A DNA stretch of 23,730 nucleotides from a virus. Each line of letters starts with the position of its first letter. Position 1 is the first letter of the stretch. Below, one piece after another: positions 4,787-18,506 of this stretch. The translations under genes and the position numbers were made by a program. Under the pieces are notes generated by a model. That model saw only the letters and a program-made list of their open reading frames with translations, did not search any database and was not told where the DNA came from. The stretch lies in the IMG/VR virus record IMGVR_UViG_3300013006_000126, positions 1 to 23,730 of that record. One strand, 5' to 3'.

Positions 4787-5854
4787 TCAAGATAATCCAC
4801 CATGTATATAAACATCAGGCAAGTGTTTTACCTGATCTAACATGAATTGTGCCTGTGTATATTCTGCATGTGCAGGATCAAATACATCGTGCTGGTGGAA
4901 CTCGGATTTTGAATAGGTATTCCAATCACTAAGTTTGGTGTACTCCACACCGTCTGCATTGTACCGTTTGGCCATCTCATAAAACTCTACAATTTCTTCA
5001 TAGTTGTCTCGTTGAGCTACCATACGAAGCACATACTCCATGCCGTTTTCTTTTTTCTTGTTGCGCAACCATGCAAGTGCATTTGTTATTTTATCCCAGG
5101 TGCCACCTCGACGAAGCTTGACATAAGTATCCGGCCTGGCAGCATCTACTGTGACAGTAATCTTGGCCACCCGCTGTTGTATTTCACCTAGTTTGTGCCA
5201 ATTTTGTGGAGCCATGATGCCATTGCTTTGGATACACAATGCCAAGTTAGGGAAGTCATTGATTCTGATTCCACTAACAAAAGCCAGTAACAGTGGGCTG
5301 GCAAATAATTCCCCGCTAGTACTAACATGCAGTCTGATGTCAGTTTTGCTTGGTCGAGAAAATAAATTTTCCGTCAAGCGTGTTCCTAGCAATTGATTTC
5401 GTTTGGCTTCTTCATCTGTATTTTTAATTATTTTGGTACGACAACTGGGACAACTGAGGTTGCAAGTAGCATCACCGGCTACAACAATTTCATTGGGAAT
5501 GTTATACAGTGAAGGATTGTGTAGTATAGATAACACAGCAGGAGGAACAGTATCTGTGGTGTTTAATTGATCGGAATTTATTATTCCACAAGTGTTTTCG
5601 TTACAGTATTCATATGTGCCATCAATAATACTACGGCGTATGTCTTGACTGTATGCGTTGCATAGTATTTCATCAATTGTTTGATTGAATATGTTTCCCA
5701 CGGTAGAAGGCATCCATCCTATACAGCCACACAAGCTCACAGTGCCATGTGGGTCAATTGCAATAGACACAAACGGGCTAAGACAAATTTTCCCTTGTAA
5801 TGATTTTTTGGGGAATTTTTTTATTACAGCAGGAACAATAGCAAAAGTTTTCAT
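4787..5854 (-). CDS. Radical SAM protein with N-terminal SPASM-like cysteine region
   Basis: The protein has 355 residues. The radical SAM cluster motif is CNLSCPSC (C131, C135, C138), followed by a TSGELF glycine-rich SAM contact (179-184) and a VDAARPDTYVKLRRGG segment (236-251) typical of this TIM-barrel family. Before the barrel, residues 20-90 read like a SPASM or twitch domain, which normally sits after it: C24 with LSPFVSIAIDPHGTVSLCGC, VGNIFNQTIDEI, then C84 and C89. These cysteines could bind an auxiliary Fe-S cluster. Substrates of SPASM enzymes are usually peptides or proteins; none can be named here. The start is the ATG at 5854, with only a weak Shine-Dalgarno; an in-frame TGA lies 18 bases upstream. 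Confidence 0.85.
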   Translation of the reverse strand: MKTFAIVPAVIKKFPKKSLQGKICLSPFVSIAIDPHGTVSLCGCIGWMPSTVGNIFNQTIDEILCNAYSQDIRRSIIDGTYEYCNENTCGIINSDQLNTTDTVPPAVLSILHNPSLYNIPNEIVVAGDATCNLSCPSCRTKIIKNTDEEAKRNQLLGTRLTENLFSRPSKTDIRLHVSTSGELFASPLLLAFVSGIRINDFPNLALCIQSNGIMAPQNWHKLGEIQQRVAKITVTVDAARPDTYVKLRRGGTWDKITNALAWLRNKKKENGMEYVLRMVAQRDNYEEIVEFYEMAKRYNADGVEYTKLSDWNTYSKSEFHQHDVFDPAHAEYTQAQFMLDQVKHLPDVYIHGGLS

Positions 5855-6183: not shown

Positions 6184-6531
6184 TTACTTACCAGCGGCCT
6201 TGAGTGCGGCTCCTTTATTGAAGCTGGGGCTATGGGAATTTGGATTGCGTTGTTTACGAGCATACCACTCATATCCAGCACGATGTCCTGAACAGTCTTT
6301 GGTACATTGGCTGCCTAAAAAAGTAAGTTCGTCTAGTTGTTCCTTGGACCAGTTGTCTGGGATAACGCCATGTTTGTCCACAAACTTGTCGTGTAGCTCT
6401 TTTGCAGATATACCATGTTCACGAGCAATGGTTTGCATCATGTGATCAATGGCTTGGTAACTGTCAGGGTGCTCAAGATCCTGTTCAAGATCTTCTACTG
6501 AGTCTTCGTTTATAAATTCATTTGCTCTCAT
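6184..6531 (-). CDS. Probable internal head protein with capsid-targeting tag, 115 aa
   Basis: The protein starts MRANEFINED, matching the T4 capsid targeting sequence MKTYQEFIAE in length and in the EFI-x-E core. Cleavage after E9 by a gp21-type prohead protease is therefore predicted. The body is acidic and helical (residues 11-80), followed by a compact C-terminal segment: C-x3-C, then SGHRAGYEWYARKQ and NSHSPSFNKGAALKAAGK. I recall similar Cys/His-plus-SPSFN-GAA endings in other phage structural hypotheticals; the role is unknown. The start makes an ATGA overlap with the 651-residue gene upstream, so it is translationally coupled. I infer that it is packaged in the head and ejected with the DNA. 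Confidence 0.8.
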   Translation of the reverse strand: MRANEFINEDSVEDLEQDLEHPDSYQAIDHMMQTIAREHGISAKELHDKFVDKHGVIPDNWSKEQLDELTFLGSQCTKDCSGHRAGYEWYARKQRNPNSHSPSFNKGAALKAAGK

Positions 6532-8483
6532 TTTTTAACAGGTTGTTGGGAAACAGGTACAGTCTTGTACACACGTTTCACAGGATCCCACACAGTTTTA
6601 CGTGGACCTTCAGCCGCTAATTTTTTCAAGCGATCAACAATGGCATCAAACTCTTCAGGATCATGCCGTCCGGCAATTTTTTCATTTTCCGCTACACCTT
6701 GTAATTTTTTTCTTGCAGCCAACTCGGCTCTCTTCTTGAGCAGTTGAGCATAACCTGAATTGGGGTCTGCGTCTTCGTCTGTTATTTTGGGATCAATGCC
6801 TTGTGCTTCTTGACTTTCCAAATAGTCCCAGGCAGTGACCATCATGCCTTGTACCTTGGCAATTTTTTCTTGTACCCACTCTGGCAAGTTTTCTTGATCG
6901 TCTATAGTGTCTAGCAAGCCCTGTGCGGCTCTGGCAATGGTCACTAGATTGGTTTTGGCCATGCCTGCTTCGTCGTCGTACTCGCCGTTGAAGCCTTCTG
7001 CTAGACCTTTAGGCTTGGCATAAGCGGCCTTGCGTTGTGCAATTCTGGATTTAACTCGTTCAACAGCAGTGTCAAGTCGTTTGTTTAATGTGATGTAACT
7101 GTCTCTTGCACCATCTCTTGCGTACATAGATGTGTCAATATCGGCACGCAATCCAGGCTCGTTGAGCAAGCCAAGTTTTTCTGCTTGTACACTCAACATG
7201 TCCAAGTATTGCTGTTTTTGTATGGCTTGATTCAAGCTGACTAATTTGGTTTTGAGTGCACCGTACCCTTCGCCAGGTGCTGCCACAGGTGCTGGTGCAA
7301 ATGCTTTTTTCAACTGTTGACTGGCTCGCTGTGCAGTGTTCTTTTCAAAGTCCTGTCGCCAAGAATCTATTTCAGCCGCACGTTGTTGTTCAATAGCTTG
7401 TTTGGCTTTTTGCAACACGGCTATACTATTGTTGCCTAGACCTTCTGCAACTTTTTGAATTCTTTCGCCTGGGGGTGCTGGTGCGTCCAGTGGTAAGTTA
7501 AGTTGTTTGCTTTTTTTCTTTTTAGACGATATAGGCACAACATTGTCTGCGTCAGTTGTGCGTGGTCTTGAAATAGTACTAATGTCAATTGGCTCAACCT
7601 CAGTAGCAGGCGGTGCCGAAACAGGCTTGGCAGCCAGCTGGTTGGCCATTTGCCCAAATGCGTTGGGTTCTACGTTGGGTTGCGCACTTGGTTGAGGTAC
7701 CGGCGCTGGTGCTACAGTGGCAGCAGATACTGGTGCAGTTGATACTACATTAGGGGTAGTAGAAACTGTGGCTCCAAGATCATCTAGAGCTTGTTGTTGC
7801 GACTGATCAATCTGTATAATTTTATTAATGATCTGTTGTTGTTTGTCAGTAGTGGCTTTTATCTGTTGTAATGCAGGCCCTGAACGACCTTTAGTTTGCC
7901 CCAAATTAGATATTCTATTTTCGATATCTTGTTTGACATCTTTTTCTAATTCATCAGCTTGCTTTTCTAATTTGTTAATTTCTTCTTGCGACTTGCGTTG
8001 AGTATCAGCTACGGCATACATCATGGCTTCATCATTGTTACGTGCATCTGGATAACGACTACGCAATTGTGTAGTTAGTCTGGCAATACGAGGAGACATG
8101 TTGTCGCCATCATCTTCCACAAGGTCATATTGAGTTGGTTTTTGAACATACTTCTGTCCGTATTTTTGTCGCCCTTGACCTCCGGCAGCGGCTTGTTGAT
8201 CAAGCTTGGCATGATATTCTGCAAATTGATCCAGCAAACTTTCAAACCCTTGCAAGGTACCCATTTTTTCTAAAAAGCGAATTTCTTGTCCAGTTTTACG
8301 ATAACCGGACCAGGCTTGTAAAAACCATTTTTTGTCTTCGGGGTTGCTGATACGAAATTTTTGTGTGCCAAAGTCCAATAGAACAGGCTCAGTGGTGCTA
8401 CGTGTTTTTTCTATCATGCCAATGTTGCGTGTGCCCATGGCCTTGGCCGGTGGCAGTTGCTCATTAAGTTCGTGTGATCTCAT
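6528..8483 (-). CDS. Large multidomain internal head protein (candidate polyprotein), 651 aa
   Basis: The N-terminus MRSHELNE is a variant of the tag, ending in L-x-E. Segments in order: a globular N-terminal part (30-115); an SPRIARLTTQLRSRYPDA segment (130-147); coiled coil rich in Glu, Lys and Gln (160-235); a Pro/Ala/Val-rich linker (235-340) with a KKKKSK patch; a helical region (350-480); a conserved-looking domain MAKTNLVTIA to WDYLESQEAQG (508-562); and a basic C-terminus. Candidate protease sites sit in linkers: KVAE-G (347), GLAE-G (496), GVAE-N (599), possibly LVE-D (123) and AAE-G (625). No catalytic motif is visible. It overlaps both neighbours by ATGA. Confidence 0.82.
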   Translation of the reverse strand: MRSHELNEQLPPAKAMGTRNIGMIEKTRSTTEPVLLDFGTQKFRISNPEDKKWFLQAWSGYRKTGQEIRFLEKMGTLQGFESLLDQFAEYHAKLDQQAAAGGQGRQKYGQKYVQKPTQYDLVEDDGDNMSPRIARLTTQLRSRYPDARNNDEAMMYAVADTQRKSQEEINKLEKQADELEKDVKQDIENRISNLGQTKGRSGPALQQIKATTDKQQQIINKIIQIDQSQQQALDDLGATVSTTPNVVSTAPVSAATVAPAPVPQPSAQPNVEPNAFGQMANQLAAKPVSAPPATEVEPIDISTISRPRTTDADNVVPISSKKKKSKQLNLPLDAPAPPGERIQKVAEGLGNNSIAVLQKAKQAIEQQRAAEIDSWRQDFEKNTAQRASQQLKKAFAPAPVAAPGEGYGALKTKLVSLNQAIQKQQYLDMLSVQAEKLGLLNEPGLRADIDTSMYARDGARDSYITLNKRLDTAVERVKSRIAQRKAAYAKPKGLAEGFNGEYDDEAGMAKTNLVTIARAAQGLLDTIDDQENLPEWVQEKIAKVQGMMVTAWDYLESQEAQGIDPKITDEDADPNSGYAQLLKKRAELAARKKLQGVAENEKIAGRHDPEEFDAIVDRLKKLAAEGPRKTVWDPVKRVYKTVPVSQQPVKK

Positions 8484-9004
8484 GTTCTTTCTTCCACGTA
8501 GTCAGCTGACTGATTGGCCAGTTGTTGTCTGCGACTGCAAAACATTTCACATGCCATGTGAGCTTCGTCGAGGCTCCGGAATGTTGATTTCATAGGACGG
8601 TTACGCACAGTGATACGGAACCCATCATCTTCATTGCCGTGAATTTTAATTTCATGTCCATCATCTGTTGTGATAGTTTTAACAGCAGGTCCCACCATGC
8701 CATGACCGTTGGCAACTTTGTCAATCAAGTCAGGATCTTTTTTCACAGCATCAGCTACGCTTTGAAAGTAATCACCTAGGCTTTTGCGATCTTTAGTAAC
8801 AACATCTTCTTTGGCAACATCTTTGCTTTCACCGCCTACAAAATAGTCATGTGTGGGATGTTGTTTTTCACGTGCGCCCAGCACAGGACTAATTTTTTTG
8901 GCCTTGAACAGTGCAGGCAATTGGGGCACAGACTTTTGTTGTGCATTTTGCCCTTCGGTGATAGTGTCAAACCGTTTTAAGATTGAATAAATGTCGTTGC
9001 TCAT
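8480..9004 (-). CDS. Probable virion protein, 174 aa, with cleavable N-terminal segment
   Basis: The chosen start is the ATG at 9004, which forms an ATGA overlap with the Dps-like gene. The N-terminus MSNDIYSILKRFDTITEGQ has a short amphipathic helix ending in ITE-G, an (I/L)-x-E type site that could be cut after E17. Then come a QQKSVPQLPALFK segment, a Gly/Lys-rich linker (HPTHDYFVGGE), a helical region with DYFQSVADAVKK, and a C-terminal beta-type domain (TTDDGHEIKIHGNEDDGFRI) with two cysteines near the end. The frame extends to 9040, but those 12 extra residues lie inside the upstream gene. I do not recognise a function; the context points to a head or internal protein. Confidence 0.78.
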   Translation of the reverse strand: MSNDIYSILKRFDTITEGQNAQQKSVPQLPALFKAKKISPVLGAREKQHPTHDYFVGGESKDVAKEDVVTKDRKSLGDYFQSVADAVKKDPDLIDKVANGHGMVGPAVKTITTDDGHEIKIHGNEDDGFRITVRNRPMKSTFRSLDEAHMACEMFCSRRQQLANQSADYVEERT

Positions 9005-9441
9005 GCTCGCTGGTCTTTCAAGTAAGACTTTAATTGCCACAGATATTTGCCATGAGCATCTTGACGTTCAGCCATGAAGTTGGCAACATCTTCTCTGCGT
9101 TCTTGTGTGGCAGTTTCAAACACTTGAGCAACAATGTTCAACATGGTTTGTGTGTCAGCAAGTAATTCTTCCAACATGAGTCTAGCACGTGGTACTTTGA
9201 TCTGGCCAGGTATCTGCGATAATTCTTGAAAGCGTTCAAGGCTTCCCGGAGCATATTCTTCTGTGGTGCGAATGTACTCAGCCATCTTGTCAACTGCCCC
9301 ATAGGAATCTGCATAAATTTCAGCAAAGAATCCGTGCAACTCAGAAAAGTCTGGACCTTCTACATTCCAGTGGAACATCTGGGCTTTTAAATAGTATGCA
9401 AAATTGCTTGCAAGCAGGATTTTAAGATCATCGGACAACAT
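9001..9441 (-). CDS. Dps-like ferritin-fold protein lacking one ferroxidase ligand
   Basis: The protein has 146 residues. The Dps signature HWNVEGPDFSELH (24-36) is followed by VDKMAEYIR (50-58), giving the four-helix ferritin fold of DNA-protecting, iron-oxidising Dps proteins. By spacing against E. coli Dps (H51, H63, D67, D78, E82), the ligands are H24, H36, D51 and E55, but the D67 position is A40, with E41 beside it. Iron oxidation may be altered. There is no long basic N-terminal tail like that of E. coli Dps for DNA binding. It overlaps the tagged 59-residue gene by 14 nt and the next gene by ATGA, so it is made together with internal head proteins. It carries no tag of its own. Confidence 0.88.
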   Translation of the reverse strand: MLSDDLKILLASNFAYYLKAQMFHWNVEGPDFSELHGFFAEIYADSYGAVDKMAEYIRTTEEYAPGSLERFQELSQIPGQIKVPRARLMLEELLADTQTMLNIVAQVFETATQERREDVANFMAERQDAHGKYLWQLKSYLKDQRA

Positions 9442-9886: not shown

Positions 9887-9892
9887 TATTTA
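9887..9892 (-). promoter_or_regulatory. T4-like late promoter motif before the 92-aa gene
   Basis: Minus strand GCTAAATACTGC. The TAA of the motif is also the stop codon of the upstream 64-residue gene. The last A lies 4 nt before the GTG start, so a T4-type start site would make the mRNA leaderless. Confidence 0.6.
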
Positions 9893-10084
9893 GCGGGTAG
9901 CTAGTTCGCGTGGTTGTCCCACGACTACGTTATGATTGTTGTATTGAGCACGTAAAATACTACGTGCTTGGTTGGCTGTGCGAGCTTGTACTGTGGTGTC
10001 AAACTGTTGGGAATACCCTTGCTGTTTTAATTGTAAACGTACAGCAAAGGTTTTTAACCCAGTAATAAAGTCTTGTGCTCGCAT
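9890..10084 (-). CDS. Small tagged protein with degenerate cleavage site, 64 aa
   Basis: The chosen start is the ATG at 10084, giving MRAQDFITGLKTF. The tag core MRAQ-[ED]-FI matches its neighbours, but residue 9 is Gly instead of Glu, so protease cleavage there may be lost and the tag retained. The rest is a small domain (AVRLQLKQQGYSQQFDTTVQ, then RTANQARSILRAQYNN and VVGQPREL). Function is unknown. The frame extends upstream to 10141 inside the SAH hydrolase gene; I reject that extension because of the tag and the late motif just before 10084. The stop codon is embedded in the late motif of the next gene. Confidence 0.78.
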   Translation of the reverse strand: MRAQDFITGLKTFAVRLQLKQQGYSQQFDTTVQARTANQARSILRAQYNNHNVVVGQPRELATR

Positions 10085-10088
10085 CCAG

Positions 10089-10094
10089 TATTTA
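10089..10094 (-). promoter_or_regulatory. T4-like late promoter motif before the 64-aa tagged gene
   Basis: Minus strand ACTAAATACTGG followed at once by ATG. The TAA is the stop codon of the SAH hydrolase gene, and the motif ends 4 nt before the start codon. No Shine-Dalgarno sequence is present. Confidence 0.65.
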
Positions 10095-11378
10095 GTAGCG
10101 ATACGTTTCGGACTTGAATGGGCCCGAAACAGTAACACCAATGTACTGCGCCTGATCGTTAGTCAAGGTTGTAAGTTGCGCTCCAAGTTGGCCAAGATGT
10201 AATTGTGCAACTTTTTCATCCAGTTGTTTTGGTAGCAAATACAACTGTCCTGCTTGATACTTGTCTGTATTGTTAAACATCTCAATTTGTGCCAACACCT
10301 GATTAGTAAAGCTGTTGGACATAACAAAGCTGGGGTGGCCTGTACCGCAACCCAAGTTCACCAAGCGGCCTTTGGCCAACACAATGATCTTGCGACCGTT
10401 GATCAAGGTCACATGATCCACTAGAGGTTTGATCTCGTCCCACTTGGCATCCTGAATGCCTGCAATGTCAATTTCACTGTCAAAGTGTCCAATGTTACAC
10501 ACAATGGCATTTTCTTTCATGCACAGCATGTGTTCACGTGTGATAACACCAATGTTGCCTGTGGCTGTTACAAAGATGTCGGCCTTGTCTTTGGCATAAT
10601 CCATGGTAACTACACGGAAGCCTTCCATGGCAGCTTGTAGTGCGCAAATAGGATCAACTTCTGTGACCCAAACTTGTGCGCTGAGTGCTCGTAGAGCTTG
10701 TGCTGAACCTTTGCCCACATCACCATAGCCACACACCACAGCAACTTTGCCAGCAATCATGACGTCTGTGGCACGTTTAATAGCGTCCACAAGACTTTCA
10801 CGGCAACCATACAAGTTATCAAACTTGGTTTTAGTTACAGAGTCGTTGACATTGATGGCTGGGATCAACAGAGTACCAGCTTGAATGCGTTCCAGCAACT
10901 TGTGAATACCTGTAGTGGTTTCTTCTGTAACGCCCTTAATGTCAGCAATGAGTTCAGGGTGCTTGTCGTGGATATAACCCGTTAGGTCATGTCCGTCATC
11001 TAGAATCATGTTGGGAGTCCAACCATCGGGGCCACGCACAGTTTGTTCAATGCACCACCAGTATTCCGCTTCTGTTTCGCCCTTCCAGGCAAACACAGGA
11101 ATGCCTAGGTCAGCAACGGCAGCGGCTGCTTGATCTTGTGTGGAGAAAATATTGCACGAGCTCCAACGCACACTTGCACCTAGTGCAACCAACACCTTGA
11201 TCAGCACAGCAGTTTGTATCGTCATGTGCAAACTGCCCACAATACGTGCACCTTTGAGTGGTTTTTTGTTCTGGTATTCCGCTAGCACAGCTCGCAAACC
11301 AGGCATTTCATGTTCAGCGATCTCAATTTCTTTGTGACCCCAAGCAGCCAAGGCAATGTCTGCAATTTTATAATCCAT
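10092..11378 (-). CDS. ahcY: S-adenosyl-L-homocysteine hydrolase (auxiliary metabolic gene)
   Basis: The 428-residue enzyme converts S-adenosylhomocysteine to adenosine and homocysteine, relieving product inhibition of methyltransferases. Visible signatures: [12 protein letters not shown] (H51), [24 protein letters not shown] (D128), TEETTTG (E153), [17 protein letters not shown] (K183, D187, C192), the NAD site GYGDVGKG (217-224), [15 protein letters not shown] and the C-terminal ETYRY. All expected catalytic residues are present. Only about 25 residues separate DDG from EETTTG, so it lacks the ~40-residue insertion found in many bacterial forms. AAGGAT precedes the ATG, and a TATAAT box lies upstream, so it may be expressed before the late genes around it. 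A methyltransferase gene at 1-897 is a possible beneficiary. Confidence 0.97.
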
Positions 11379-11440: not shown

Positions 11441-11622
11441 CCAGCTTTCATGTTGGCACACCAGTGTGCCATGCGTTGTCTTTCGCCAGAACTGTTGGCA
11501 GCAATACTACGCAGTTTGGTCACGCTTTGTTTACAGTTCACACCTGAGCGTTTGGCCAGGCCTTTACGTCCAGGTTTTTTACCATCTGCAAAGTTTTCGT
11601 TAACAAACTCTTGTGCTCTCAT
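11428..11622 (-). CDS. Small basic tagged internal head protein, 64 aa
   Basis: The protein begins MRAQEFVNEN, with predicted cleavage after E9. What remains is a very basic ~55-residue peptide: KKPGRKGLAKRSGVNCKQ, SVTKLRSIAANSSGERQRM, AHWCANMKAGRKK. It has two cysteines and a GERQRMAHW core. Size and charge suit a DNA-associated internal protein, like the T4 internal proteins packed with the genome. This is inference; no enzyme motif is present. The start overlaps the 350-residue gene by ATGA. Confidence 0.82.
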   Translation of the reverse strand: MRAQEFVNENFADGKKPGRKGLAKRSGVNCKQSVTKLRSIAANSSGERQRMAHWCANMKAGRKK

Positions 11623-12671
11623 GCTAGTCCAATCTTGCCAGGAGCCATTGGTCCATCTTCAATTCTTTCGCCGCCGTCAAAGTAACGTATTTCAATGGGC
11701 AGGTCCGGCCAGTTTAATCTGTATGCAGCCATGATGCGATGATTGCCTTCATTGACCCAGGCTTCGCCGTTATAAGCCACCATGATGTAGGGCAAGTATT
11801 CTGCGTCTGGATTGCTACCCATGGGTGGCAACTTACCTGTCTTATCCATGTAATCCATCAACCACTTTAGGTCACCTCGACGCACATTCATTTGTTCGTT
11901 GCGCATGCCTGGTAAAGAAGCCAGACGCATTACACGTACTCTCGGAGGAGTTCCACGAACAGCGGCTGTGGTACTGCCCATGTAAGGCACACCAAAACTG
12001 TTACGACCTTTGCTTTTTGCGTAGTCAATCTTGTCTTGTAACCAATCTTCATTTGGTACGTCTACACTAAGTTTACCTTCCGCCACACCTTTTTTGTCTT
12101 TTTGTGCTTTTCTTTCAGCGGCTCTGCGGGTAGTTTCTTGCGGCGTCACTTTTGCACCGTCGGAGTAATACTTGGCACCGGCACCGTCTTTAGCTTTGTC
12201 GATGGTACTTTTTGCTTTTAAGCCTGCTATGGCGTTTTTGAACTGTTTGGTTGTTTCTATATCATCATCAGTATAGCCTTCCGCCATACCTTGTGCAATT
12301 GCTTCACGGGCCTGACGTTCGTTTTCGGCTTTGAATCGTTGCATAGCTTGTGGATCCTTAATTTGTCCACGGTCCAATGCTTGCCAGATTGGCAAATCAA
12401 ATGTGAGATATTTTTTTTGTACTGCTTGAGCATAACTAACTTCATTGCCACGACCTTGCCAATCAGGTTTATGCCCCCACACAACTGATACAGATTGACC
12501 ATTTGGCCAGTTGATGCGCATACGCTCGCCATATAATACGTATGTATTACCTTGCCATGTAAACGCAAGATCACCATTGACTGTACGTCCCATGCTCCAG
12601 CCATGCTTTTTTAACAAGGCATCAACTGCGGCTTGATCTGCGTTTTCAATTATAAACTCTTGTGCTCTCAT
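11619..12671 (-). CDS. Tagged internal head protein with ParB/sulfiredoxin-like C-terminal domain, 350 aa
   Basis: The N-terminus MRAQEFIIEN is a clear tag, cut site after E9. Domain 1 (11-125) is a small alpha/beta unit with AYAQAVQKKYL-like and WQALDRGQIKDP segments. Two candidate protease sites follow in linkers: GMAE-G (E131) and KKGVAE-G (E198). Between them is a short Lys-rich helical piece. Domain 2 (200-350) ends with MVAYNGEAWVNEGNHRIMAA (297-316) and IEIRYFDGGERI. The GNHRIMAA box resembles the G-x-H/R-R-x-x-A motif of the ParB/sulfiredoxin fold, which in other phages occurs in injected polyvalent proteins; NTPase or nuclease activity is possible but not shown. The start lies one base after the preceding stop. 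Confidence 0.82.
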   Translation of the reverse strand: MRAQEFIIENADQAAVDALLKKHGWSMGRTVNGDLAFTWQGNTYVLYGERMRINWPNGQSVSVVWGHKPDWQGRGNEVSYAQAVQKKYLTFDLPIWQALDRGQIKDPQAMQRFKAENERQAREAIAQGMAEGYTDDDIETTKQFKNAIAGLKAKSTIDKAKDGAGAKYYSDGAKVTPQETTRRAAERKAQKDKKGVAEGKLSVDVPNEDWLQDKIDYAKSKGRNSFGVPYMGSTTAAVRGTPPRVRVMRLASLPGMRNEQMNVRRGDLKWLMDYMDKTGKLPPMGSNPDAEYLPYIMVAYNGEAWVNEGNHRIMAAYRLNWPDLPIEIRYFDGGERIEDGPMAPGKIGLA

Positions 12672-12672
12672 A

Positions 12673-15600
12673 TTAGTGAAACATTAAAAACTGATTCTGT
12701 ACATCAAGTCGTGTTGCACCCAAGTCACCGTGGCCTGCTGGAAATACCACCACATTCCATTTGGGCTTGGGTCCTTCAGGGATACGATTCATTTGATCGT
12801 ATGTGATAATTGACGCTGGGTCAATGTTGTATTTTGTAGATAACTTCTGTTTAAAGTTTTCCCATGCTTCTGGGCTTTTAACCTGTGTACGGCCTTGTTC
12901 ATCCTTGACATATTTGCCTTTGGCATCAGTCACAAACAAATCGCGGAACATGTCTTTGGGAATAGTTGGTGCACCTTTCAAGTTCTTACCAGCATTTCTG
13001 TAAAGTTCAACTTTCTTGACTTCACGACTCTTGGCACCACCATCGCTAAAGTTGGGCAATGTGTTAGACGGCGTATTTGGATCAGTTACTGGATCTCCCA
13101 TTTTGCTGTAGAAGTAAAAACGTACATCTGGATTGTTAAGTTGCACTTTCTTACTAAGGTCCCAGTATTCTTTAGAGAAGAAGTCGCCAGCATCATGAAT
13201 ACGCACTAACAACTTAATACCATTTTTGTCTGCCAGTGCTTTTGTTTTTTTGATTTCGTTGTCAAACATTGCCATGTATTCGTCGGGGTGGTTAACCAAG
13301 AAGTTCAATGCTTGTGCGGCTGACATTGATGCGGCAGGGAACATGACATAGCCGCCCTTGCGAGCATAACAAAACAGTTGGCATTCACCGGCCCCCGGGC
13401 AAGTTGTGATTTCTACAAACTCCCCAGTGTCTTCATCAACAACAATACCGCTTAGTGCTGGTAGTGTCAAGTCGTATGTGATGGCACCTTCTTTTTTACT
13501 CTTGCTCATCTTGGCATTTGATCCAAGGATCGCTCTAGGCGGTGTGGTGATTTGACGTTTTAGATCTTCCAAGTCCCATTCTTCTGTGCCATCATCTTTG
13601 GTAATGGCTTTGACATTGCTGCCGTGAATAATAGGCTTAAACCGATCTTGTTTGGTTTTTGTACCTGTTTTGATACGAGTCAGATAATCCTGCATGTCTT
13701 GTTTGGACCATGACTTCTGTGGTGCATTGAGCTTGATTGCTTCCTTTACATCTTTTTTATTCTTATTGTCTTTGTACCTTGGGCCAGCGATAGCATCCAG
13801 TTGATCCTTGGATAATTTTTTTGTCCAGTTTGGTTCGTTATAGGGTTGAGGTTTTTTAGCGACAGAGCCTTCCGCTACCCCACCTTTGGTAACTACACCA
13901 ATATTACCCTGCAAGTCGGGACGATTCTTCAAGATAGCATTCATTGTGTTGATTGCGGCTTGTTTGCTAGTGAATGTAACATCTTTGCCTTGCTTGCTCC
14001 ATACTTTACCGTTGATCTTCAGACCCCAGACTTGTCGACCGGCCTGTGGATCTTGCCCTTCTGGATCTCTCGAACCACTCCGGAATCCTGTGCGATTTGC
14101 ATGATAGTTGTTGCGGACTTCGTCTACATCTTTTTTAGCAAAGTTATCATTCTGGAAGCTACCAACAATGTACCATTTTAAATCATGGTCAACATCATTG
14201 TGTTCTACGCCCATTACGTTGACATTGTAACCTTTATCGTTGAACCATGAGTTGGCATAACCCACTAGGTTTTTCTTGGCTTTTTCGCCGTAGGCATCAA
14301 TGTTAAATCCGTCGTTGCTGACATCAAAGTCTTCAAACCAATCATCACCAATGATGTCTGCAAGCTCGTCATCTGTGTACCAACGGCCCGAATCACCTCC
14401 ACCGTTACCAGGGGGAGCAAATTCGTTCACACCTTGATCTTGAATGTTCAATACCTTGACTGGGAATCCGCCCAGTGTAGTTTCTTTTAATATGTGTGCT
14501 ATCTTCATGTTGCTGTCCTGTGATTCTCTCAAGTTGCTGGCATTGCTGGTTAACAATGGTGGCTTGCCAGCCGCGTCTGTAGTCCATCCCATCTTCTTAG
14601 CTTGGCGTTGTACTTCGCCGGGCTTGATATCCTGAGTGATGGCCATGCTGTAGCGTGGGTCTCGTGCTTCTTTGTCGTTGACGGGAATGTAACCCGACGC
14701 TTCTGCTACAATTGGTTTTATTCTACTCAATTCGTACATGACTTTGTTGCCGGTGTCAGCACGGAAAGCACGAAAGCCCAAAGCCCTTGCATAACGCTGA
14801 ACCAAACTGTCATACAGACTTGCCCTGGTCAGTGCTTTCTTTTGATCCTCATCTGGTTTAACTGCTTTTGAGGCTGAAAAGTATATTTTGTTGGGTTTGT
14901 ATTTTCCCTTGGCGCCAGGCACCCTGTCAGAAACAAATGTTTCAACAGCACTTAACACAGTGGCAAACACACGCTGTTGATCACCCTCACCTGTCTTTTC
15001 TTGACTGTTGTTTCTAAAGAACTCAACACTCCATGCTTCCTCTTTTGTCTCTTGTTTAAATCCCTTGTTGAACATAACACTTAGAAAAGTTCCGTCATCT
15101 AATCGTGCTATTGCGTCTACATCACCATAGTCACCTTTTTCCCATCGAAGTATTTTATAGGGTTGGTCTAATGATTCCGTAACATCTTCGGGTACTACAT
15201 GTCCTTGGCGACGACGCAGTTCGTTTTTGAGTCGTTGCATTAGTTCTTCTTCGGCACCAGCACGACCCATGTGCTTGATAGTCTGAGCTGTGCGTCCCAC
15301 GTCTTGCACTGTACGAATGGCATCAGCGCCTGTGGTAGCGCAACCTGGAGTACCTGCTACACAAGCGGCAGCTGCCACGGCTGCTAATTTGTCTTTGACA
15401 GATTCTTCTAGCGGCACATCTTTAAAGAATTCAGGATATTCATCAACCCAGTGGCGCATGATGCGGCCTGCCATAGCGTTGGCTTCGTCTTCATAAGGCG
15501 ATCCTGTTTCGCCTGCATCCACAGGCATGTCGGCTTGTTCGTCTTGACGAGCATGTGTGAGTTCATGTGCCAAGGTACGCAAGATGTCCAATACGTGTCG

Positions 15601-16614
15601 TCCACTAACAGCCAAGGTAACTGAATATGTGTCAGGATCAAAACGACCAAACGTGCCGTTTCTACGTGTCCATTCTGGATCATGTTTTAGTATAATCTTG
15701 GGAGCCTGTTCAATGTCAAGATAGTCAACACAACTATCAATAAATGGTTGCAGTATCTGTTTGATATCTGGAGATTTTGTATTTTCTCGAACACTCTCAC
15801 CACCTCCACTGTCACCACCACCTTCGCTATCTCCAAAAGTAAATCCAGGGTACCAATACCCACCATAGCCACGTTGTGCTTGTTTTTTCTTTTTCTTGCG
15901 TTCTTGCAAACTTAGTTCTTGATCCTTCACAGCACTTCTAGCTGTGCTCAACTGATCCAGTAAGCCTTGTGTGCGCAAGGCCTTGAATGCTAGATTCTCT
16001 GGACCAAACTCGCCTGTGCTATCCAAGCCAGCCTGTCGCATGTGTTTGACCTTGGCAGCAATGGCTTCTAACTGAGCAGGATCACCTGATGCAACAGCCT
16101 GTTCAATTCTGTGTCCAATATCTTCAAACTTAGAACGCACAGACATGTCATCAACTTCGGGACGACGTCGCCGGGGTACACTTACCCAGTCGTTGTTTGA
16201 TAAAGAATAGATGCCTTGTGAGTGGTGAACTTGGTCAGCATCCTGAACATACAGCTCAACATCGTATCCGCCAATTTTGTAGTTGTGTTGATCATTGTAC
16301 TGATACTTTTTGGCGTCAAACAATTCTTTGTAAACATCACTATTTTTGCCGTCAGGTGTGTTGACCACAAGGTGCAGGTCTATGTCGCTGTGTGGAGTGT
16401 ATGTGTAGGCCGCATTGCTACCGCTTACTGTTACATCTTTAACATCAAGCCCATCAACGCCTAAAAACTCTCTAAAGTCATCAGCAATAGCCATGAGCTT
16501 TTCACGCACTTCAGGCAACAAGTGTTCGTCGCGACCCCATAATCTAGGATTAAGAGTTTTGTTAAACTTCACTGCGTCTGATAATTTGAATGATTCTAAT
16601 TCGTTGATGTCCAT
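12673..16614 (-). CDS. Giant polyvalent-type internal protein: nucleotidyltransferase, metallopeptidase, Gp88-like domain
   Basis: The protein has 1313 residues. Order: nucleotidyltransferase fold with GSNAAYTYTPHSDIDLHLVV (65-84; D77, D79; third acid in DVELYV, 118-123); Gly/Ser linker; zincin HELTHARQDEQAD (350-362) with E376 as likely third ligand; hydrophobic Ala-rich stretch (409-420); a domain with KIYFSASK (576-583) and SLYDSLVQRYARALG (599-613); an internal tag MKIAHILKE (703-711); IVAE-A (638) and GVAE-G (915) linker sites; and a C-terminal domain with CPGAGECQLFCYARKGG (1072-1088) and RIHDAGDFF (1138-1146), resembling mycobacteriophage Gp88. The start MDINELESF at 16614 is preferred because a terminator and late motif lie just upstream; an extended TTG frame at 16668 would translate the terminator. 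Confidence 0.85.
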   Translation of the reverse strand: MDINELESFKLSDAVKFNKTLNPRLWGRDEHLLPEVREKLMAIADDFREFLGVDGLDVKDVTVSGSNAAYTYTPHSDIDLHLVVNTPDGKNSDVYKELFDAKKYQYNDQHNYKIGGYDVELYVQDADQVHHSQGIYSLSNNDWVSVPRRRRPEVDDMSVRSKFEDIGHRIEQAVASGDPAQLEAIAAKVKHMRQAGLDSTGEFGPENLAFKALRTQGLLDQLSTARSAVKDQELSLQERKKKKKQAQRGYGGYWYPGFTFGDSEGGGDSGGGESVRENTKSPDIKQILQPFIDSCVDYLDIEQAPKIILKHDPEWTRRNGTFGRFDPDTYSVTLAVSGRHVLDILRTLAHELTHARQDEQADMPVDAGETGSPYEDEANAMAGRIMRHWVDEYPEFFKDVPLEESVKDKLAAVAAAACVAGTPGCATTGADAIRTVQDVGRTAQTIKHMGRAGAEEELMQRLKNELRRRQGHVVPEDVTESLDQPYKILRWEKGDYGDVDAIARLDDGTFLSVMFNKGFKQETKEEAWSVEFFRNNSQEKTGEGDQQRVFATVLSAVETFVSDRVPGAKGKYKPNKIYFSASKAVKPDEDQKKALTRASLYDSLVQRYARALGFRAFRADTGNKVMYELSRIKPIVAEASGYIPVNDKEARDPRYSMAITQDIKPGEVQRQAKKMGWTTDAAGKPPLLTSNASNLRESQDSNMKIAHILKETTLGGFPVKVLNIQDQGVNEFAPPGNGGGDSGRWYTDDELADIIGDDWFEDFDVSNDGFNIDAYGEKAKKNLVGYANSWFNDKGYNVNVMGVEHNDVDHDLKWYIVGSFQNDNFAKKDVDEVRNNYHANRTGFRSGSRDPEGQDPQAGRQVWGLKINGKVWSKQGKDVTFTSKQAAINTMNAILKNRPDLQGNIGVVTKGGVAEGSVAKKPQPYNEPNWTKKLSKDQLDAIAGPRYKDNKNKKDVKEAIKLNAPQKSWSKQDMQDYLTRIKTGTKTKQDRFKPIIHGSNVKAITKDDGTEEWDLEDLKRQITTPPRAILGSNAKMSKSKKEGAITYDLTLPALSGIVVDEDTGEFVEITTCPGAGECQLFCYARKGGYVMFPAASMSAAQALNFLVNHPDEYMAMFDNEIKKTKALADKNGIKLLVRIHDAGDFFSKEYWDLSKKVQLNNPDVRFYFYSKMGDPVTDPNTPSNTLPNFSDGGAKSREVKKVELYRNAGKNLKGAPTIPKDMFRDLFVTDAKGKYVKDEQGRTQVKSPEAWENFKQKLSTKYNIDPASIITYDQMNRIPEGPKPKWNVVVFPAGHGDLGATRLDVQNQFLMFH
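14482..14508 (-). other. Internal tag-like sequence with possible nested start
   Basis: Residues 703-711 of the 1313-residue protein read MKIAHILKE, nine residues ending in L-x-E, the same length as the N-terminal tags. AGGA lies 7 nt before the ATG, so a nested start giving a 611-residue C-terminal product is possible. It may also be a relic of gene fusion. Confidence 0.4.
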
Positions 16615-16659: not shown

Positions 16660-16674
16660 GTGGAGCAAACTAGA

Positions 16675-17585: not shown

Positions 17586-18506
17586 TTAATTTTCTTCCAT
17601 GTAATCTGATGCTTGATGGCTGGGAGCATCTAGAACTTTGCTTTGCATGGCTTCGTTTACATGAGCATGCAATTTCTTCATTAATTCACGCACTTCGGGT
17701 CGTGCTTGATACAATGCTTGTAACTCACTATCGGGCATGGAGTTTAAGTGTTTGACAAAGTCTTTACCGGACTGAAACACTTGCTTGATCATGTGCCGAT
17801 TGGGATCAGTTGTTTGTTCAGTAACATCATCTGGACCATTGGGCATGTTTGATGTGGGAATTTGTGCCCCACTGCCAACCGGTGCTCCAACTAGCCCACT
17901 GCCACCAAAGTTTTCTTTTATATCTGCACCCATGCCGGCATCTAGCAATTTAATGGTAACACCAGTTAGCTTGTCATTGCCTTCGGTTTGCGGGTACAAT
18001 GCATTAACTAGTCCGCCCTTTTGATCTGGTGTCATGTCCGGCCACTTGGCACGAATTTCTGTAGCCGATGTCATTCCCGGGCCAAACTGTACCACTGGCA
18101 AATAAGCCATGTAACCATGCTGACTCATGGGCTGTAGACCATTGCGTTTGTAAGGTTGTAAGTAGCTGGAAGAGCCGTCTTTTTTAACACCCCCAGCCTG
18201 CGGTTCTTGGTTGCGATCTTTTTCACTGCGAACAAAAATCAGCTGTGTTTCGTTGGGATCAAAGTGCTGTGTAATTTCTTCAGCACGAAATGGGTTTTTA
18301 ACTTGTATAAATCTATGTGCAGGAACACCGGACAATCTAGCTAGCTTTTCTTTTATTTCAAACGGAAATTTACGTGTGCTGGTGTCAGCTGTGGCTGCTA
18401 CGTAGACCTCAGCTGACGGAAATGCGGCACGTGCGGCGTTATAAAGAGCCATGTGTCCTGTGTGAAAAGGATGGAAGCCGCCCGGCATGATCACTAATTT
18501 TTTCAT
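17586..18506 (-). CDS. HxGH-type nucleotidylyltransferase with phage-specific C-terminal extension
   Basis: The protein has 306 residues. The first ~170 form a cytidylyl/adenylyltransferase fold: MPGGFHPFHTGHMALYNAA (8-26) holds the HxGH motif (15-18), RSEKDR (93-98) follows, and TSATEIR (146-152) is the S-x-T-x-x-R motif. Such enzymes join NMP to nicotinamide mononucleotide, phosphopantetheine or glycerol phosphate; the substrate is not clear. The remaining ~130 residues are not part of the fold: a Gly-rich linker with IKE-N (196-199) and VTE-Q (228-231), both like prohead-protease sites, then a helical end. A late motif lies 5 nt before the ATG without a Shine-Dalgarno site, so it is a late gene and may be a virion component. 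Confidence 0.87.
   Translation of the reverse strand: MKKLVIMPGGFHPFHTGHMALYNAARAAFPSAEVYVAATADTSTRKFPFEIKEKLARLSGVPAHRFIQVKNPFRAEEITQHFDPNETQLIFVRSEKDRNQEPQAGGVKKDGSSSYLQPYKRNGLQPMSQHGYMAYLPVVQFGPGMTSATEIRAKWPDMTPDQKGGLVNALYPQTEGNDKLTGVTIKLLDAGMGADIKENFGGSGLVGAPVGSGAQIPTSNMPNGPDDVTEQTTDPNRHMIKQVFQSGKDFVKHLNSMPDSELQALYQARPEVRELMKKLHAHVNEAMQSKVLDAPSHQASDYMEEN

Follow-up and report, generated by a model that had tools for sequence, protein, structure and literature searches.

A candidate virion cargo polyprotein in a T4-related jumbo phage, with putative prohead protease sites at its module junctions

The polyprotein gene and its modules

The DNA analyzed here, referred to as the window, is the entire 23,730-bp IMG/VR record IMGVR_UViG_3300013006_000126. 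The record is probably a piece of a bigger virus, and its source group looks like freshwater jumbo viruses of bacteria related to phage T4. The window contains a genuine open reading frame (ORF) on the minus strand (12673..16614), for which full-length or partial homologues were recovered from 75 IMG/VR loci in a scan of that database. As originally predicted it encodes 1313 residues from an ATG, or 1331 residues from a TTG 18 codons further upstream (start at 16668). Residue numbers below follow the 1331-residue form (P0001), with 18 to be subtracted for the ATG form, and the features whose coordinates are written with two dots are on the minus strand. The encoded chain is divided into modules by a short motif ending in Glu ([LIVMF]xE, with a slash marking the predicted cut), which occurs at residues 23, 256, 295, 422, 498, 656, 715, 729, 749, 850, 933 and 976 and separates every module; nine other occurrences lie mostly within domains. 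We consider it probable that the gene encodes a polyprotein that a T4-related jumbo phage carries as virion cargo, cut into its modules by the prohead protease, packaged and injected.

The ATG form opens with MDINE/L (16600..16614), a possible capsid-targeting and cleavage start in which M1 is invariant, E5 nearly invariant and residue 3 mostly I or L among 37 homologues of the adjoining nucleotidyltransferase (NT) module. This module (residues 24-256, 15901..16599, ending SLQE/) is barely above the Pfam cut-off for NTP_transf_2 (PF01909, 21.5 vs 21 bits) and matches phrog_36119 over residues 33-254 (E 8e-40). The GSN and D-x-D residues that mark Pol-beta-type nucleotidyltransferases are invariant in the 37 homologues, bearing out the GS-x-DID nucleotidyltransferase recognized earlier. 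Matches to the NT module were also found in Maribacter and Lak phages, and two free-standing NT ORFs (L061, L065) terminate exactly at the LSLxE position. A linker, Lys-rich and then Gly/Tyr-rich (257-295, 15784..15900, ending SVRE/), follows, and a related Lys-rich segment occurs elsewhere directly after a MRASEFVTE/ start. The next module (296-422, 15403..15783, ending PLEE/) is a zincin-like metallopeptidase with HELTH encoded at 15553..15567. The HExxH motif and a downstream Glu are invariant in 35 homologues, and DUF6782, a family of putative metallopeptidases, is matched by homologues (best E 1.6e-7), in agreement with the earlier description of a zincin with intact catalytic residues. 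PDB sequence profiles gave no significant match for the NT, zincin or GP88 modules.

Directly after PLEE/ lies a signal-peptide-like module, SVKDKLAAVAAAACVAGTPGC (423-498, 15175..15402, ending DVTE/). The Ala-rich hydrophobic stretch noticed previously was located at 423-445, in the context VPLEE/SVKDKLAAVAAAACVAGTPGCATT; it is kept in 12 homologues, nearly all with the preceding Glu, and one of them has a more canonical lipobox (SLVGC). The KIYFSASK module (499-656, 14701..15174, ending IVAE/) was aligned in 16 copies, every one with a hydrophobic-x-E site in front. In an AlphaFold2 (AF2) model of residues 494-905, positions 499-655 form one confident domain (pLDDT about 90). Its best Foldseek hits are GNATs (best E 0.006, prob 0.87), and VIA-align gave an RNase E catalytic subdomain at Z 9.7 over 103 residues and GNATs at Z 7-8. 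The predicted fold thus resembles GNATs or an RNase E subdomain. The original prediction had stated that about 475-635 matches nothing known; among cultured phages the module had no match.

The short GYIPVNDKEARDPRY module (GYIP; 657-715, 14524..14700, ending NLRE/) recurs in 30 further homologues whose contexts vary, usually with xxE/[AS][ST]GYIP at the front. The FAPPGNGGGDSGRWY module (FAPPG; 750-850, 14119..14421) lies between GVNE/ and DVDE/, and in 13 homologues [VIL]xE precedes FA. Its core, 762-843, is the second confident domain of the AF2 model (pLDDT about 90). The region 730-900 had also been described as unlike anything known; part of it folds confidently and the remainder is mostly linker. 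The low-confidence linkers of the model are predicted to be disordered and hold most of the sites in that segment. Region 851-933 (13870..14118) ends in GGVAE/G at the seam GVAE/G (GGGGTAGCGGAAGGC, 13867..13881), followed by a spacer (934-976, 13741..13869) whose terminal DVKE/ has an invariant Glu in alignment A1. The chain closes with a GP88 module (977-1331, 12676..13740), and here the earlier assignment from C-x5-C-x3-C and RIHDAGDFF was confirmed by PF17338 (E 6e-25, 88.8 vs a gathering score of 24.4 bits); the three Cys and HDAGD are invariant in alignment A1. The GP88 model (pTM 0.70) is barrel-like and gave no Foldseek hit at E <= 1e-3. Its middling structural matches include radical SAM enzymes, interspersed with other barrels (best Z 6.4), and a radical SAM fold is plausible for this predicted structure. 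Fold prediction, which had been suggested as a check, gave two folded domains in 494-905 and a barrel-like model for GP88.

Module shuffling and the motif at the junctions

The modules do not travel together. Across the 75 loci the NT module occurs alone, the KIYFSASK, GP88 and FAPPG modules are found in separate ORFs, and GYIP appears in many contexts. Several of the loci lie on contigs of 340-350 kb that keep the gene order of the window (DnaJ, Clp ATPase, cytidylyltransferase, polyprotein gene, Dps-like protein, DNA polymerase). In two close relatives (L004, L013) the window gene corresponds to two genes in different frames that overlap at ATGA. In the window the two are joined in frame at an internal MKIAHILKE/ (14482..14508), leaving the start of the second gene buried as SNMKIAHILKE/TTLGGF, a fusion that, like the protease-like sites between the modules, had escaped the earlier reading. 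Free modules at the locus begin with MRAQEFITE, MRAQEFVTE, MKIKDLILKE and similar sequences, and their internal copies lie directly behind xVAE, VTE, INE or VKE.

The T4 prohead protease gp21 cleaves after L/I-x-E, and T4 internal proteins reach the prohead via a short N-terminal capsid-targeting sequence that gp21 removes. In our dataset, homology breaks were defined independently of the motif by all-against-all comparison. [LIVMF]xE was present at 232 of 738 end breaks (36 expected, 6.4-fold); for start breaks the figures were 169 of 563 (41 expected). Breaks within one family are not independent, and 210 distinct contexts were seen. Among all 20 residues only Glu was clearly enriched at P1, the others reaching at most 1.4-fold, in line with the [L/I]xE motif at the boundaries of T4-type prohead protease substrates. 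At P3 V, L, I and M are preferred, with Val the commonest. When 167 ORFs with a strict targeting start were compared with their 198 distinct internal homologues, the internal site was exactly in register in 99 and one residue off in 28, with each other offset accounting for 0-15.

The zincin, with all its metal ligands intact in the window ORF, offers another source of processing, and autoproteolysis by zincin domains is proposed for polyvalent proteins in general by Iyer et al. (2017; PMC5512222). We regard it as unlikely that the window gene encodes a conventional polyvalent protein whose processing, if there is any, is done by its own zincin. Many seam-bearing polyproteins with no zincin family among the matches listed have the same sites, as do the starts of free-standing genes; motif and position fit T4 capsid-targeting sequences and the gp21 rule.

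Secretion signals are normally N-terminal when they are of the twin-arginine translocation (Tat) type. In the relatives, internal Tat-type signals (RRGFLKGLGAAALAG) were found within 12 residues downstream of a [LIVMF]xE site in 12/12 cases, against a background of 20%; Pfam TAT_signal hits were obtained for several of them, and in some cases a GH19 chitinase domain comes next. The position of such signals deep in polyproteins suggests cleavage ahead of them. The Ala-rich stretch of the polyprotein is of the same kind as the signals placed behind sites. It is conceivable, if rather doubtful, that prohead protease cuts expose buried secretion signals, such that modules opening with a Tat-type or lipoprotein-like signal right behind a site, the Ala-rich stretch and the GH19 modules among them, would become exportable only once cleaved and host machinery would send the injected enzymes to the membrane or periplasm. 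In three loci (L100:3858-4493, L114:6261-6890 and L035:12827-14404) GH19 chitinase/lysozyme-like modules carry a Tat-type signal directly behind a targeting start or an internal [LIVMF]xE, and these modules are possibly injected cell-wall enzymes for host export.

The shuffling of modules, the presence of a site at each junction and the secretion signals buried within proteins of relatives together argue for a polyprotein that is cut into separate modules, and the ORF is probably not one functioning 1313-residue protein.

An 18-bp seam conserved as DNA

The commonest internal site, QGVAE/G, is also conserved as DNA, as the 18-bp sequence CAAGGTGTGGCGGAAGGC. The flanks of 69 such junctions are mutually unrelated, and what these junctions have in common is limited to about 19 bp around this sequence, with sharp edges; its codons are unusual (the rare Ala codon GCG at 55% vs 7% background). 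A search for the 18-mer as DNA alone returned at least 120 viral stretches, a few of which overlap the first set, and among the matches listed 146 of 148 distinct occurrences were in frame within an ORF. Bacterial genomes (257 Gb) gave 26 hits, and the 25 that could be placed were distributed as by chance (8 in frame, 6 in other frames, 11 antisense). In 11 long viral records the seams and targeting starts lie almost entirely in one locus per genome. The seam-bearing ORFs include, among the matches listed, GNATs, GP88, deaminase, DUF6321, deoxynucleotidase and ParB-like families, a protein-kinase family that carries the annotation host-transcription inhibitor, as well as virion structural families.

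Conservation as DNA, together with the in-frame placement in viruses and the random placement in bacteria, suggests that the seam is a DNA-level joint that would also serve as a site in the protein. The strong synonymous-site conservation of the 18-mer and its sharp edges between unrelated flanks would also suit a mere hot spot of recombination or a short dispersed repeat, with an incidental VAE and an uncut protein. We find this improbable, given the in-frame placement, the enrichment of Glu alone at P1 and the internal Tat signals, which always lie right behind a site; moreover, most junctions of the polyprotein use a seam-less [LIVM]xE, for example SLQE, DVTE, ILKE and DVDE.

Protease, virion evidence and comparison with known cargo

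A T4-type S77 (gp21-type) protease scored above the Pfam cut-off in 9 of 11 long relatives, where it belongs to a T4-like head operon and lies beside genes for a portal, scaffold and capsid of the T4 kind; in alignment with T4 gp21, its His, Ser and Asp regions are invariant. The major capsid protein of the relatives (L086:8301-9518) shares 65-66% identity with its counterparts in PA5oct, Vibrio phage 2.275.O and Sinorhizobium phage Phosso, jumbo phages that could provide culturable models. It contains YLKE/NASAG near the processed T4 region, at a point where the gap placement of the aligner is imperfect.

The NT module matches ORF156 of cyanophage S-CREM2 (E 4e-31), which is encoded at 126012-126725 and was detected in the virion proteome of that phage with 6 unique peptides (PMC10665884, Table 3). 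The S-CREM2 cytidylyltransferase and ORF155 were likewise detected in the virion (PMC10665884), and the gene order of these three proteins matches that of the window. Of the S-CREM2 proteins examined, 5 of the 39 detected ones have a T4-type targeting start (hydrophobic residues at 4 and 7, aliphatic at 8, Glu at 10), compared with 0 of the 94 undetected ones (p = 0.0018). The earlier view of an injected polyvalent protein thus gains indirect support for packaging and injection, from the NT homologue in S-CREM2 virions and the targeting starts, and probably loses its single working chain. A counter-defence role of the modules is plausible. As a separate observation, the virion-detected S-CREM2 gp12 (L237:7704-10313), annotated as Cas9/Csn1, has a late targeting-like RFASFMAE/AAV about 25 residues from its start.

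Shuffling alone is no proof of cleavage, and the predicted disorder of the linkers would also fit a mosaic multidomain protein whose Glu-containing flexible linkers stay intact, the single chain acting after injection or in the infected cell and not as a cleaved virion component. A hydrophobic P3 combined with a fixed Glu at P1 is atypical of flexible linkers, however, and the capsid-targeting starts and the virion-borne NT homologue also speak against such a protein, which seems to us very improbable.

The cleaved cargo polyprotein that we favour would be synthesized late, and its T4-like capsid-targeting starts would draw it into the prohead core. There a gp21-type (S77) protease would cleave at the module junctions, on the far side of [V/L/I/M]-x-E, and so free the nucleotidyltransferase, the zincin, the signal-like hydrophobic module, the GNAT-/RNase E-like domain, GP88 and small spacers, to be packaged with the DNA and then injected. 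Modules would be swapped between genes at the junctions, most commonly at the 18-bp seam encoding QGVAE/G. Domains, shuffling, in-frame seams, site register and the protease in relatives were computed, and the presence of an NT protein in virions comes from the literature for the homologue only; late expression, the cleavage itself, injection, the host targets and an effect on the host are inferred.

Several points weigh against this interpretation. No cleavage product has been observed, and the known substrates of prohead proteases either are trimmed of propeptides at their ends or are scaffolds that get degraded. Here P3 is most often Val, whereas T4 gp21 is described as cleaving after L/I-x-E and the predicted capsid site is LKE/N. 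Some [LIVMF]xE sites fall within folded domains, where they would need protection. Part of the conservation of GVAEG is at the DNA level, as the GCG codon indicates, and recombination alone could explain it. The strict start pattern behind the S-CREM2 p-value was picked after a loose pattern had given p = 0.05, its positions following published T4 mutagenesis, and the non-structural proteins of S-CREM2 virions might be co-purified according to the authors of that study (PMC10665884). The sequences of the window and its relatives are contigs from metagenomes, and no head operon is present in the window. The T4 late-promoter consensus TATAAATA was not found in the window, leaving late expression unsupported by this promoter test.

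Among known systems, T4 IPI, IPII, IPIII and Alt are the closest in their N-terminal targeting peptide (key positions 4 and 7) and [LI]xE cleavage; T4 is also alike in its portal, S77 protease and capsid genes, and its internal proteins and Alt are injected with the DNA. A T4 cargo protein has a single effector and is trimmed only at its ends, in contrast to the many modules with a site per junction described here. Polyvalent proteins (Iyer et al., 2017; PMC5512222) are similar in their phage-encoded mix of NTase, zincin and possibly GNAT-like domains and in their proposed packaging and injection, and the window ORF does combine NT, zincin, GP88 and two more folded modules in one chain. The available parts of that paper ascribe processing to embedded zincins and do not describe a common junction motif or DNA seam. 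DarA and DdrB of phage P1 are comparable as injected internal proteins, and the DarA N-terminus is cleaved by the prohead protease (PMC12810830), but they belong to unrelated families, with one N-terminal cut and no modular seams described. In the jumbo phages SPN3US and phiKZ the protease cuts internal head proteins after a short Glu motif, repeatedly within propeptides (PMC10052503); there the multiple cuts strip propeptides and do not free several functional domains. The C-terminal module clearly belongs to the same family as mycobacteriophage Gp88 (PF17338), here as one exchangeable module of a polyprotein. In the full-text literature searched, which mostly excludes subscription papers, we found no prohead protease that cuts a phage polyprotein or cargo protein at internal seams, nor any case in which effector modules are strung together with a single protease site at each junction and an in-frame DNA seam in common.

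If the polyprotein is cut as proposed, the head-maturation protease would have a new job, unpacking weapons besides shaping the capsid. The seam would be a simple sequence tag by which uncharacterized jumbo-phage genes could be predicted to encode virion cargo, and it would explain how phages could exchange effectors module by module with delivery unbroken. The question of which dark-matter phage genes are injected would become directly testable.

T4-type capsid-targeting starts surround the polyprotein gene in the window. The adjacent candidate cargo gene (11619..12671) starts with MRAQEFIIE/ and has internal GMAE/G and GVAE/G seams, with a GKLSVDVPNE module behind a seam that is free-standing in L004 as MRAQEFITE/GKLSVDV. 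Two further candidate cargo genes have a MRANEFINE/ start (6184..6531) and GLAE/G and GVAE/N seams (6528..8483). The cytidylyltransferase gene, whose virion-detected S-CREM2 counterpart lies near the NT gene, is two genes upstream of the polyprotein gene (17586..18506). A Dps/ferritin-like protein (9001-9441; PF00210, E 7e-19) is kept beside the cargo locus in relatives, and an adenosylhomocysteinase-like gene, judged by eye, adjoins the locus at 10092-11378. A small ORF at 9890-10141 has MRAQDFITG, which resembles a targeting start without the Glu and is perhaps decayed. At 4787-5854 the window encodes a radical SAM/SPASM-like protein with several CxxC motifs, again judged by eye, and related-looking ORFs are found near the locus in L004 and L013.

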